From positions 124,001 to 188,000 of the forward strand of contig NZ_CP034885.1 in the NCBI RefSeq assembly GCF_005083105.1: 64,000 nucleotides of DNA, given 5' to 3'. The translations under genes and the position numbers were made by a program. Each line of letters starts with the position of its first letter. The first letter of the stretch is position 1. This document shows, piece after piece, positions 3,852 to 10,626 of the stretch. This DNA is from Buchnera aphidicola (Aphis nerii). Lineage in GTDB: Bacteria; Pseudomonadota; Gammaproteobacteria; Enterobacterales; Enterobacteriaceae. The notes under the pieces were generated by a model. The model was not told the origin of the DNA and ran no database searches. It saw only the letters and a program-made list of their open reading frames with translations.

Positions 3852-5780
3852 ATGCCTGTAATAAGATTTTGTGATGGAAGTAAAGAAATTTATGAGCATT
3901 CTATTTCATTAAAAGAAATTTTAAAACATAAAAATCCTAATATAATTCAGTCTCTTATTTCTGTTACTGTTAATGGTAATTTTTCAAATTTAAATACTTT
4001 AATTACAGAAGACGCTTTTATATCATTTTTTAGAAAAAATGATCTTTCTGCATTAAATATTATTAGACATTCGTGTATACAACTCTTAAATTATTCAATT
4101 AAAACATTATGGCCATTATCTAAAATTGTAGAAGGTAAAATCATAAATAATGGTTTTTATTGTGATATTGATACAAAAAATAGAATTTTAGAAAAAGATC
4201 TTATTTTAATAGAAAAAAAAATGAAAGATCTTTTAAATAAAAAATATGATATTTTAAATAAAAAAGTATCTTTTGATAAAGCTTTAAAGGAATTTAAAAA
4301 ACAATTACAGACATATAAAGTTGATTTAATAGAAAGTAATTTTTTCAAAAATGATGTAATTTCTTTGTATTATCATGAAAACTATATAGATTTTGATATT
4401 GGTATGCAGGTTTTTAATATAAAGTTTTGTAAATATTTTAAATTACAAAAAATTGGAGGCGTTTATTGGAAAGGTAATAATAAAAATAAAATGTTACAAC
4501 GTATTTATGGTACTGCTTGGTCAAATCAAGAAGAATTAGATCAACATTTAAATTATATTAATGAAATAGAAAAAAGAGATCATAGAAAAATTAATAAATA
4601 TTTAAAATTATATCATATGCAAGATGAGTCACCTGGTATGGTTTTTTGGCATAATAATGGTTGGATTGTTTTTAATGAATTAGAAAGTTTTGTTCGTGAA
4701 AAACTAAAAGAATATAACTATAAAGAAGTAAAAACGCCGTTATTAATAGATAAATCAATATGGGGGAAAAGCGGTCACTGGGATAATTACAAAGACGCTA
4801 TTTTTACTACTTCATCAGAAAATAGAGAATATTGTATTAAACCCATGAATTGTCCTGGACATGTTCAAATTTTTAATATTGGATTAAAATCTTATCGAGA
4901 TTTACCTATTCGTATGGCGGAATTTGGAAGTTGTCATAGAAATGAATTTTCAGGGGCTTTACATGGTCTTATGAGAGTTCGTAATTTTACTCAAGATGAT
5001 GCTCATATATTTTGTACTCAAGAACAAATACAATTTGAAATAAATAATTGTATTAAAATGATATATGATTTATATAGTATATTTAATTTTAAAAAGATTA
5101 TAGTAAAATGTTCAACTCGGCCACAAAAACGTATTGGTGATGATTTAATTTGGGATAAAGCAGAAAAAGATCTATCTGATGTTTTGATTAAAAACAATTT
5201 AGAGTTTGAATATCAAACTGGAGAAGGTGCTTTTTATGGTCCTAAAATTGAATTTGTTTTACAAGATTGTTTAGATAGAAACTGGCAATGTGGAACAATT
5301 CAGCTTGATTTTTACTTGCCAATTCGTTTAAATGCATTTTATATTAATGAAAATAATGAAAAATCTATTCCTATTATAATTCATCGAGCTATATTAGGTT
5401 CAATTGAACGTTTTATTGGAATACTAGTAGAAGAATGTGCTGGTAAATTACCAACTTGGTTATCTCCAACACAAGTTGTAGTAATTAGCATAAAAAGTAT
5501 TCATTCTACTTATGTACAAAAAATAGTTAAAAAACTTAATTCAATAAATATTCGTGTTGAAGCAGATTTAAGAAATGAAAAAATAGGATTTAAAATTAGA
5601 GAACATAGTTTACGTCACATTCCATATATATTAATTTGTGGTGAAAAAGAAATTAAATATAACACAGTGTCTATTAGAAATAGAAACGGAAAGCATTTTG
5701 GAATGATTGATCTTGATTTTTTTATTAAAAAACTACAAAAAGAGATATTTACTCGTAGTTTTTTTCAAATGGAGGAATAA
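3852..5780 (+). CDS. thrS: Threonyl-tRNA synthetase with a destroyed editing site
   Basis: Charges tRNA-Thr. At 642 residues it is colinear with E. coli ThrRS: TGS-like domain 1-60, N2 editing domain about 65-225, class II catalytic core about 245-530, anticodon-binding domain from about 535. Catalytic zinc ligands are retained in MNCPGHVQIF, CHRNEFSGALHG and IIHRAILGS. The editing domain keeps H73, but H77 is Q, C182 is D and H186 is Q, so the HxxxH/CxxxH hydrolytic site that clears Ser-tRNA-Thr is gone. First gene of thrS-infC-rpmI-rplT; its 3' end contains the infC ribosome site. I do not recognise the tRNA-like operator that precedes E. coli thrS. Confidence 0.98.
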   Translation: MPVIRFCDGSKEIYEHSISLKEILKHKNPNIIQSLISVTVNGNFSNLNTLITEDAFISFFRKNDLSALNIIRHSCIQLLNYSIKTLWPLSKIVEGKIINNGFYCDIDTKNRILEKDLILIEKKMKDLLNKKYDILNKKVSFDKALKEFKKQLQTYKVDLIESNFFKNDVISLYYHENYIDFDIGMQVFNIKFCKYFKLQKIGGVYWKGNNKNKMLQRIYGTAWSNQEELDQHLNYINEIEKRDHRKINKYLKLYHMQDESPGMVFWHNNGWIVFNELESFVREKLKEYNYKEVKTPLLIDKSIWGKSGHWDNYKDAIFTTSSENREYCIKPMNCPGHVQIFNIGLKSYRDLPIRMAEFGSCHRNEFSGALHGLMRVRNFTQDDAHIFCTQEQIQFEINNCIKMIYDLYSIFNFKKIIVKCSTRPQKRIGDDLIWDKAEKDLSDVLIKNNLEFEYQTGEGAFYGPKIEFVLQDCLDRNWQCGTIQLDFYLPIRLNAFYINENNEKSIPIIIHRAILGSIERFIGILVEECAGKLPTWLSPTQVVVISIKSIHSTYVQKIVKKLNSINIRVEADLRNEKIGFKIREHSLRHIPYILICGEKEIKYNTVSIRNRNGKHFGMIDLDFFIKKLQKEIFTRSFFQMEE

Positions 5781-7224: not shown

Positions 7225-8214
7225 ATGTTAATGTTAAAAAAATTATGGGTTGTTATTACAAGTGAAATTAACAATGCTAATAGTATAGAAATACTAGATA
7301 AATTAAAAATTAAATACTTAGGTAAAAATGGTATCTTTAATAATTATATGCGAAATTTAAAAAATTTTTCTTTTGAAGAAAAAAAAGAATACAGTATTAT
7401 TATTAATAGAATTAAAAAAAAAACAATATCTAAAATTTATGAAAAAAAAATTGAATTAAATAAATCTATTTTAAAAAAACGTATTGAAAATGAAAAAATT
7501 GATATATCTTTACCAGGTCGACGTTTTGAAAATGGTTCAATTCATCCTATAAATCATACTATTAATTGTATAAAAAATTTTTTTTATCAATTAGGATTTC
7601 AGTCAGTTAATGGTTTTGAAATAGAAGATGAATATCATAATTTTGATGCATTAAATATGCCTAAAAATCATCCTGCACGTGATAGTCATGATACCTTTTG
7701 GTTAGATAAGAATAGATTATTAAGAACTCAAACCTCTACTATGCAAATTCGTATTATGAAATTAGAAAAACCTCCAATGAGATTTATTTTCCCTGGAAAA
7801 GTATATAGAAATGATTATGATTCTACACATACACCTATGTTTCATCAAATAGAAGGCTTGATAGTTGAAAAAAATATTAATTTTTCTCATCTGAAATGGA
7901 TTATATACAATTTTATATATAATTATTTTAACAAAAAAGTTGTTCTTAGATTTCGGCCTTCTTATTTTCCTTTTACTACGCCTTCTGCCGAAGTTGATAT
8001 TATGACTGATTCTAAAAAATGGTTAGAAATTTTAGGTTGTGGTATGGTGCACCCCCTAGTTTTGAAAAATGTTAATATTAATTCTAATGTTTATTCTGCT
8101 TGTGCATTTGGATTAGGAGTAGAACGAATGACTATGTTACGTTATGGTATTTCAGATATTCGAACTTTTTTCGAAAACGATTTAAGGTTTATAAAACAAT
8201 TTAAATATATTTAG
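7225..8214 (+). CDS. pheS: Phenylalanyl-tRNA synthetase alpha subunit
   Basis: Catalytic subunit of the alpha2-beta2 PheRS that charges tRNA-Phe. The protein has 329 residues (E. coli 327). An N-terminal coiled coil (about 1-85, very lysine-rich) is followed by the class II core: SLPGRRFENG, EIEDEYHNFDALN, PARDSHDTFW, RTQTSTMQIR, GKVYRNDYDSTHTPMFHQIEG and the terminal FGLGVERMTMLRYGI (motif 3). An A10 run at 7414-7423 stays in frame. pheT follows after nine bases. Confidence 0.98.
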   Translation: MLMLKKLWVVITSEINNANSIEILDKLKIKYLGKNGIFNNYMRNLKNFSFEEKKEYSIIINRIKKKTISKIYEKKIELNKSILKKRIENEKIDISLPGRRFENGSIHPINHTINCIKNFFYQLGFQSVNGFEIEDEYHNFDALNMPKNHPARDSHDTFWLDKNRLLRTQTSTMQIRIMKLEKPPMRFIFPGKVYRNDYDSTHTPMFHQIEGLIVEKNINFSHLKWIIYNFIYNYFNKKVVLRFRPSYFPFTTPSAEVDIMTDSKKWLEILGCGMVHPLVLKNVNINSNVYSACAFGLGVERMTMLRYGISDIRTFFENDLRFIKQFKYI

Positions 8215-8223
8215 TGAGATAAA

Positions 8224-10626
8224 ATGAAATTTAGCGAAAAATGGTTACTTGAATGGGTTGATCCTAAAATAGATATCGTACTTTTAAGCAAACAAATTGT
8301 TAATTCTGGCATAGAAATCGAGTCTATTGATAAAATATCTCCATTATTTAATGGTGTAGTAGTTGGTAAAATAGTTTCTTGCACTGTACATCCTAAATTA
8401 AATAATTTAAAAATAGTTAAAGTTGATATAGGAAAAAAAAATTTATTAAATATTTTATGTGGAGCTTTAAATTGTCGCAATAAAATAAAAGTAGCAGTAG
8501 CTACTATTGGAAGCATATTACCTAATAATATAAAAATTACTTTAAAAAAGTTTGATGATGAAAATTCTGAAGGAATGTTGTGTTCTTTTTTTGAATTAGG
8601 TTTATTTAATAATAATAACAATATTATTGAATTTCCCAAAGAAACTCCTTTGGGAATGGATGTTAATGATTATTTTTTATTAGAAGATAATATTATAAAA
8701 GTAAATGTTCCACCTAATAGAGCAGATGCATTGAGTATTTTAGGAATGGCTCGGAATATAGCAGTTATAAATAATTTAAATATATCTCCATTAAAAGAAA
8801 AATATAATCCGATTACAAGTCAAAAGAAATTACCAATTTATGTTCATACTGAAAAAAAAGATATTAATTTTTTTGGAAGAATAATTAATAATATAAATAT
8901 TAATATTGACACTCCATTTTGGATGAAAAAAAAGCTTTTTATGTGCGAAATGTTATCAGATAATGTGATAATTAATATTATTAATTATATTTTAATTGAA
9001 ATAGGTCAACCATTAAATATATTAAACGCAGATGAAATAGATACATGTATTCAAATCAGACAAACGAATAAACAAGAATTTTTATATTTAAAAAATAATC
9101 TTAAAATAATATTAGATCAAGAAATGTTAGTATTTTCTGATAAATCAAAAATATTGTTTTTACCTGGTAATTTAAATTCTGATTTTTTGGAAGTTAATCA
9201 AAATACAAAAAATATATTTTTAATGTCATATTCAGTAGACAAAGAATCTTTATTTAATATTACAAAAAAGTTTGGTTCTAATAAAATTCTTAATTATTAT
9301 AACCATGGTATTGATTTATCTTTACAAAAATATGCAATTGAATATGCTACAGAATTAATTATGAAAATATGCGCTGGAAATTCAGGCAATATTACATATT
9401 ATATAGATAAAACTTCTTTAACGAATAAAAATAGAATTAAATTATATTATGAAAATGTTAATAAAATAGCTGGTTTTTTTATTGATTCTAAAATTATTTT
9501 AAATATTTTATTTCGTCTTAAATATGAAATAAAGGAAAATCAAGATTATTTAAATGTTGTACCACCCACTTGGAGATTCGATATATTAATAGAAGAAGAT
9601 GTAATAGGTGATATTCTTCGAGTGTATGATTATAATAAAATTCCCTTAACTTCATTAAAAGAAAATTTTAAGTTTTTTAAACAAACAAATGATTTTCAAA
9701 AAGATTATATGTTAAATCAATTATCTACGTTACTTATACATAAAGGTTATCATGAAATAATTACTTATCCATTTATTGATCCAATTTTTCAAAAAAATAT
9801 TTTTTCAATAAATGATAAAGAATTACTTATTTCTAATCCTATTTCTAAAGATTTTTCTTCTATGAGAAGATCATTATGGCCTGGTTTGATTAAGACTCTT
9901 TCTTATAATATAAATCGAAAACAAGATAGTATTCGTTTATTTGAACGAGGATTATGTTTTTTAATAGATGATAAAAAAAAACTTGGAGTCAACCAAAAAA
10001 TGTTTTTAGGAGGAATAATTAGTGGATTTTATACTAAAGAAAATTGGTTTTCTAAAATAAGAAAAGTAGATTTTTATGATTTAAAAGGTGATATAGAATC
10101 TATATTAGAATTAATATGTGGTCTAAATCATTATGAAATTAAAAATGAAATAGTATTAGGATTGCATCCAAATCAAAGTGCAAAAATTTTTTTAAATGAT
10201 AATTTTATTGGTAGTTTTGGTAAGATAGATCCAGTTTTAGAAGAAAAGTTAGATTTAAATAACAATATATTTTTATTTGAATTACTAATTGATGAAATTT
10301 TTGATTTTAAGAAACTCAACAAATTTAAAGTTAAAAAATGTTGTAAATATCCGAGCAGTCGTCGTGACATTTCAATATTAGTATCAGAGAATATTTTATA
10401 TTCAGATATTATTAAAACATGTAGAGATTGTTTTTTAGATAAAAAAATAAATATTAATCTTTTTGATATTTATTCATCTAATAAATTTTCCAATAAAAAA
10501 AGTTTAGGAATTAGTTTTACTTTTCAAGATGAAAGAAAAACTTTAAAAGAAAATGAAATTAATTTAATGCTCGATCATTGTATAAAAACGTTAATAAATA
10601 AATTTCAAATTATTTTAAGGAAATAA
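8224..10626 (+). CDS. pheT: Phenylalanyl-tRNA synthetase beta subunit with degenerate editing domain
   Basis: Structural, tRNA-binding and normally proofreading subunit of PheRS; 800 residues (E. coli 795). Order: tRNA-binding OB fold about 40-150, B1/B5 region, B3/B4 editing domain about 210-370, catalytic-like core about 480-690, C-terminal RNA-binding domain about 705-800 ([10 protein letters not shown]). The Tyr-tRNA-Phe editing pocket is lost: aligned with E. coli, H265 is N, G318 is N, E334 is M, T354 is K and A356 is L. The GQPMHAFD motif reads GQPLNILN and the block before RGVDP is scrambled. Domains outside B3/B4 are well conserved. Four bases separate it from ihfA. Confidence 0.97.

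Follow-up and report, generated by a model that had tools for sequence, protein, structure and literature searches.

Gene content of the pheT locus

We analysed a window of 64,000 nucleotides from the chromosome of Buchnera aphidicola (Aphis nerii), a genome of 642,180 bases over three contigs; the window itself has a G+C content of 24%. Its pheT encodes the beta subunit of phenylalanyl-tRNA synthetase (PheRS). Among the best 120 of 382 protein matches, the closest named relative is PheT of Buchnera aphidicola (Aphis fabae), at 76% identity, and the named matches that follow it are further Buchnera, several of them from Aphis. The genes on which the analysis turns are as follows.

3852..5780, + strand: thrS; His73 retained (4068-4070), with Q77 (4080-4082), D182 (4395-4397) and Q186 (4407-4409), from alignment and codons
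6392-6589: a 65-aa frame at the place of rpmI, assigned from position and length only
7225..8214, + strand: pheS, alpha subunit; specificity residue Ala294 retained, with G292A and F293C beside it, from Pfam and alignment
8224..10626, + strand: pheT, phenylalanyl-tRNA synthetase beta subunit, 800 aa, intact frame, from the ORF, alignment with E. coli PheT and Pfam

The genes run in the order DAHP synthase, thrS, infC, the 65-aa frame, rplT, pheS, pheT and an HU/IHF family gene, which matches E. coli from thrS to ihfA. Four genes (infC, the frame in the rpmI place, rplT and pheS) therefore separate pheT from thrS upstream.

Editing-site residues of the window PheT

The editing domain of PheT and the replaced positions within it map as follows, with their state across the 35 Buchnera genomes in which pheT is readable.

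8866..9372, + strand: B3/B4 (editing) domain, residues 215-383 (Pfam PF03483, E = 3.3e-37)
8938-8940, + strand: R239F (TTT); F239 in 35/35 Buchnera
8953-8955, + strand: R244L (TTA); L244 in 34/35 Buchnera
9016..9018, + strand: H265N (AAT); Asn in 34/35 Buchnera, His in G024 only
9175..9177, + strand: G318N (AAT), at the pocket residue whose change to Trp (G318W) blocks E. coli editing; Asn in 33/35 Buchnera, His in two
9223..9225, + strand: E334M (ATG), with loss of the tyrosine-hydroxyl reader; 14 changes on the genus tree
9280..9291, + strand: an N-K-I-L stretch in place of T354/A356, its pairing varying with gap placement

Five residues, N, N, M, K and L, had been predicted at the positions of E. 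coli H265, G318, E334, T354 and A356. Alignment with PheT of E. coli K-12 bears out the first three in both the genus alignment and a phmmer alignment, and these three positions sit in ungapped parts of the pairwise alignment with E. coli. The last two hinge on the placement of a one-residue deletion near 353-358: T354/A356 become K/L in the genus and phmmer alignments and N/I in the larger alignment, and in neither does the window carry T or A. Both signature motifs had been called unrecognisable, which is so only for TDASHRYERG, mostly replaced in the window; GQPMHAFD is present as GQPLNILN, with GQP retained and His changed to Asn, in a domain that Pfam readily identifies. The B3/B4 domain itself is thus present, and His265, Gly318, Glu334, Thr354 and Ala356 of editing-competent bacterial PheRS are all absent. 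R244 is not diagnostic, because the large genome G061 carries Pro there.

The expected contrast between a degenerate B3/B4 domain and its conserved flanks was upheld: B3/B4 shares 30% identity with E. coli, the lowest of any PheT block, whereas the other four blocks share 36-47%. When three Alteromonadales are compared with E. coli, B3/B4 is among the better conserved blocks (64-68%, against 49-51% for B6/B7). The block that is weakest in the window is therefore not the weakest among free-living genera, which indicates that B3/B4 has diverged from its ancestral form beyond the neighbouring blocks.

In Thermus thermophilus PheRS, Glu323 holds a water jointly with His261. We placed T249 and N250 of that enzyme, two residues that lie close to the ester bond, at E. 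coli T253 and N254 by a simple offset; in the window T253 is replaced by Ile and N254 is retained, as Asn is in 31 of the 35 readable Buchnera. If Asn254 does correspond to that active-site Asn, as we assume, its retention is a counterpoint to loss of function. H265N alone is likewise no proof of loss, since archaeal and eukaryotic PheRS, according to one report, carry Gly at the position of T. thermophilus His261, with an Asn side chain substituting for it, and human cytosolic PheRS still edits Tyr-tRNA(Phe) (PMC3275996). The same report assigns recognition of the tyrosine hydroxyl to the T. thermophilus counterpart of Glu334 (PMC3275996). A B3_4 profile search of the whole genome returned pheT as its sole match and thus no second B3/B4 protein that could act in trans, and the one other trans-editing family searched, PF04073, has a single match per genome, which is ProRS. 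Judged by its residues, the window PheRS has likely lost Tyr-tRNA(Phe) proofreading.

Distribution of the site in the genus and family

The change is not private to the window. Our genus set comprised 36 genomes, 35 of them with a readable pheT. In the remaining genome, G008 (L117, L148), thrS, pheS and pheT are broken into frames, through assembly error or true decay, and alaS and leuS are open; it was left out of the PheRS and ThrRS counts for its broken frames. None of the 35 readable genomes has the E. coli residue set at the PheRS editing site. In the genus alignment, all five core residues are replaced in 32 of 35, none retains G318, E334 or A356, and the exceptions are His265 in G024 and a T at the ambiguous position 354 in G013 and G029. 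The larger alignment places N at 354 in all 35 and A at 356 in G002 only. The full H, G, E, T, A set is present in all ten yardsticks: E. coli, six same-family genomes of at least 3.7 Mb and three Alteromonadales outgroups, the last drawn from 80 loci kept from a scan of genome contigs, among which, judged by title, there were no symbionts, all being free-living-type Alteromonadales and their kin. With five core positions replaced and no intact site in the genus, the predicted proofreading deficiency of PheRS appears well founded and, because the change is present in every readable genome, probably ancestral to Buchnera.

Outside the genus we read another 53 genomes from this family: the six of at least 3.7 Mb and 47 of the 53 reduced genomes of at most 2.4 Mb (all but G040, G045, G086, G111, G136 and G166). 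Allowing S or T for A356, the PheRS site is intact in 13 of the 47 reduced genomes and altered in 34. When Buchnera is entered as a single clade, reduced genomes with an intact site are on average larger (median 1.20 Mb, n = 13, versus 0.70 Mb, n = 24; p = 0.03, kinship uncorrected). The site is lost in G043 (~2.0 Mb) and G074 (~2.4 Mb), and two small genomes, G117 at 538,294 bases and G068 as a single contig of 352,837 bases, carry H, G, E and T with either A or T at the last position, so reduced size does not force its loss.

Constraint on the B3/B4 domain

Across six close Buchnera pairs, dN/dS is 0.30 in B3/B4 versus 0.22-0.27 in the other PheT blocks, and the mean number of changes per column is 7.25 versus 5.6-6.5, which together point to a domain that is mildly relaxed rather than free. 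Changes were placed on a rapidly built LG+G4 tree, in which branches are long, residue composition is uneven and 33 of 89 inner branches reach 95. Position 334 changed 14 times, exceeding 86% of PheT columns, and holds S, T, I, N, V, C, G or M in Buchnera, never Glu; position 354 changed nine times, 265 and 318 once each, and 239, 356 and 375 not at all. Sites that do not vary among the yardsticks and at which Buchnera has fixed a different residue number 12 of 81 in B3/B4 versus 12 of 228 elsewhere (p = 0.013), or 9 of 73 in B3/B4 when the ambiguous stretch is removed (p = 0.06). B3/B4 is not simply decaying, as N265, N318 and L356 are near-invariant in the genus. The simplest reading is that selection no longer maintains tyrosine recognition and that the role of the new residues is to pack the domain.

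Editing sites of other synthetases

We extended the comparison to the other editing synthetases. The E. coli positions in brackets below are those that we take to be their editing residues or, for ProRS, the relevant insertion-domain residues; their letters were verified in the E. coli sequences.

ThrRS (H73, H77, C182, H186): H73 retained in the window, with H77Q, C182D and H186Q; set intact in 0/34 Buchnera, a count that also omits G030, where the gene is cut by the fetched stretch
AlaRS (H564, H568, Q584, C666, H670): all five retained in the window (HHQCH); intact in 36/36 Buchnera
IleRS (T241-243, N250, H333, D342): T241-243, H333 and D342 retained in the window, with N250S (TTT-S-HD); intact in 35/35 Buchnera apart from a uniform N250S, G008 left out
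ValRS (T222, K277, D286): all three retained in the window (TKD); intact in 34/35 Buchnera, G008 left out
LeuRS (T247, T248, R249, T252, D345): all five retained in the window (TTRTD); intact in 11/36 Buchnera, the window included, and altered in 25/36
ProRS (K279, D350, H369): K279 and D350 retained in the window, with H369F

Loss of the ThrRS editing site had also been predicted, and this holds for three of its four residues, His73 being kept. Taken together, these replacements make it very probable that neither PheRS nor ThrRS has a working editing site. As a side observation, His73 (window 4068-4070) is retained only in the window and G007; the other 32 genomes have Tyr, Arg, Cys or Ser, and a reversion is possible. 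In proS (L254 and relatives), H369 is F or Y in 6/6 Buchnera, with D350 kept in 6/6 and K279 in 5/6. Within leuS of the genus (L258-L287, L372-L375), the intact LeuRS sites are those of G008, G010 and the Aphis-type clade; parsimony requires at least two LeuRS changes on the tree and, if loss is irreversible, several independent losses.

Beyond Buchnera, all 26 readable symbionts with altered PheRS, from 28 genomes searched, have an intact AlaRS; of the two unread, G041 has the gene at a contig end and G157 has it interrupted. The aminoacylation half of G157 alaS (L407) is open, and the editing half has two in-frame stops and a Tyr for one editing histidine, the sole interrupted AlaRS among the 28. 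The IleRS threonine run is altered in 4/14 and ValRS T222 in 1/15 (15 genomes searched), and the IleRS N250S change recurs in G117, the one genome outside Buchnera in which LeuRS was read. ThrRS is missing in 3 genomes outside the genus and short in 11 further rows, among which C182 and H186 remain only in G088 and G124.

PheS and possible consequences for translation

PheS Ala294, which is reported to contribute to tyrosine exclusion (PMC7373986), is retained in all 92 PheS sequences read, the window included; a compensating change at this specificity residue is thereby ruled out. The neighbouring replacements G292A and F293C occur together in 32/35 readable Buchnera and, among the rows read outside the genus, as a pair only in G065, with F293C alone in several Buchnera-like genera.

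Misincorporation of tyrosine for phenylalanine had been taken to follow from the degenerate pocket. It does not: in E. coli pheT(G318W), editing drops by a factor of more than 70 while growth in ordinary conditions is normal, and p-Tyr at Phe codons is not significant, with m-Tyr at about 1% (PMC4066437), and Buchnera keeps Ala294. By analogy with that strain, if errors arise in Buchnera, m-Tyr at Phe codons would be likelier than p-Tyr. In Mycoplasma, however, Tyr has been reported at Phe codons (PMC10057733).

Explanations for the altered site

We consider it very likely, from the residues and their distribution, that the B3/B4 pocket no longer hydrolyses mischarged tRNA(Phe), through a loss specific to particular synthetases and probably ancestral to the genus. 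All five core positions (H265, G318, E334 and T354/A356) are replaced, and the beta subunit retains the domain in a form that is recognisable and under selection. The residues at 318 and 356 may plug the pocket with their side chains, much as in E. coli G318W, loss of Glu334 would abolish tyrosine recognition, and specificity would fall to the Ala294 pocket of PheS. Selection at the PheRS site may have lapsed since PheRS and ThrRS errors are cheap, with proofreading by AlaRS, IleRS and ValRS having presumably stayed under strict selection, and this difference in cost would make the loss synthetase-specific.

The original prediction instead saw a general loss of translational quality control, in which drift in a small population erodes all proofreading jointly. 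Parts of the record fit such decay: PheRS (0/35) and ThrRS (0/34) are never intact in Buchnera, ProRS H369 is replaced in all six genomes read, LeuRS is altered in 25/36, intact PheRS tracks larger genomes (the kinship-uncorrected difference in medians above), and outside the genus IleRS, ValRS and one AlaRS are affected (4/14, 1/15 and the interrupted gene). However, the very same Buchnera genomes keep AlaRS (36/36), IleRS (35/35, apart from N250S) and ValRS (34/35), and the small genomes G117 and G068 retain the PheRS site. Since three sites are spared and two are struck every time, the pattern in the genus is not one of general decay; drift alone would hardly produce it, and we regard general loss as unlikely. 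A sequencing or alignment artefact is scarcely conceivable: the 353-358 stretch does align ambiguously, but similar replacements recur in 35 genomes and the window PheT is open over 800 aa. For H265, G318 and E334 the ungapped pairwise stretches refute it, and the caveat stays for 354 and 356. It is also improbable, slightly more so than general loss, that the pocket has been rebuilt, with K236, F239, L244, N265, N318, L356 and Y375 sustaining an altered activity, either another hydrolytic preference or a non-editing role. The enrichment of fixed replacements in B3/B4 (p = 0.013, weakening to 0.06 without the ambiguous stretch) and the near-invariance of several new residues can be read as altered function, yet the substrate-reading position 334 varies among eight residues, most codons of the new residues are rich in A/T, in line with the 24% G+C of the window, and packing constraint accounts equally well for the fixed residues.

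A further reading concerns why the site lapsed. On this account Buchnera makes phenylalanine and not tyrosine, so tRNA(Phe) would rarely meet tyrosine and selection for PheRS editing may have been released. All six tested Buchnera have a prephenate dehydratase domain (pheA), and a TyrA dehydrogenase domain was not found in them; among reduced genomes, the site is intact in 0/21 with pheA and no tyrA match versus 13/32 others (Fisher p = 0.0006). Counting the Buchnera clade once reduces this to 0/6 versus 13/31 (p = 0.07), and independent phylogenetic pairs (three on supported branches) are uninformative. The site is also lost in 14/22 genomes with neither gene, 2/4 with tyrA alone and 3/6 with both; even true TyrA proteins match weakly (E = 1e-14 to 1e-8), which means that a diverged TyrA might escape detection, and the idea leaves the ThrRS loss unexplained. 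The association is suggestive, and we hold this metabolic account as a tentative possibility.

Returning to synthetase-specific loss, error cost and tyrosine supply are two ideas for why PheRS was affected, and both fit. LeuRS, ThrRS and PheRS are reported as the synthetases seen losing proofreading and AlaRS errors as costly (PMC6918089), and the cost idea fits the genus-wide table of synthetases. A fuller scenario, which we think rather doubtful as a whole, is that the stem lineage of Buchnera retired PheRS and ThrRS proofreading, refitted the PheRS pocket with fixed residues and kept AlaRS, IleRS and ValRS near-invariant, the tolerated errors being set jointly by a tyrosine-poor metabolism and the cost per error. 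If that were true, a symbiont genome would be a readable record of tolerable mistranslation. The pattern in the genus itself, with two sites always altered, LeuRS altered in some lineages and three near-unchanged, puts to the test the common view that tiny symbiont genomes lose accuracy wholesale. It ranks the costs of translation errors in nature, a ranking that fits the published suggestion that errors by PheRS, ThrRS and LeuRS are more easily tolerated, those by AlaRS being costly (PMC6918089).

Comparison with known systems

Among the titles and abstract openings listed by the literature searches, we found no report on the PheRS editing residues of Buchnera, which the survey of Melnikov et al. 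2018 (PNAS) may list. As relayed by three reviews and one research paper, that survey reported that host-restricted bacteria whose genomes are reduced carry mutated or degenerate editing sites (PMC7373986, PMC11415595, PMC10057733, PMC12362246), and the degenerate site of the window, in a host-restricted bacterium, shares this pattern.

Mycoplasma is reported to have lost editing naturally in LeuRS, PheRS and ThrRS (PMC10057733, PMC7373986, PMC4014445), and two of these, PheRS and ThrRS, have altered sites in the window too, by the same type of change, in which the domain is retained and critical residues are replaced. As in the window, the PheT subunit persists in the Mycoplasma described (PMC4014445). 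Unlike Mycoplasma, the window has intact LeuRS editing residues, and whereas Mycoplasma defects in PheRS and LeuRS editing are reported as measured (PMC10057733), the PheRS defect of the window is predicted from sequence. Arguments from immune evasion are inapplicable because Buchnera is a mutualist.

E. coli pheT(G318W) and Buchnera N318 share a bulkier residue at position 318 of the editing pocket (PMC4066437). The E. coli strain has one engineered change with a measured loss of editing and normal aminoacylation, whereas Buchnera carries Asn plus further replacements read from its genes. Mitochondrial PheRS, as described in one report, has no editing subunit and relies on its synthetic site (PMC7373986); Buchnera, by contrast, keeps a beta subunit with a selected B3/B4 domain. 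It also retains Ala294, a residue stated to be missing from the mitochondrial PheRS of human and yeast (PMC7373986). Editing loss in host-restricted bacteria is thus already published, and what the present analysis adds is a count for each synthetase within one genus, together with the fixed residues that replace the PheRS site.
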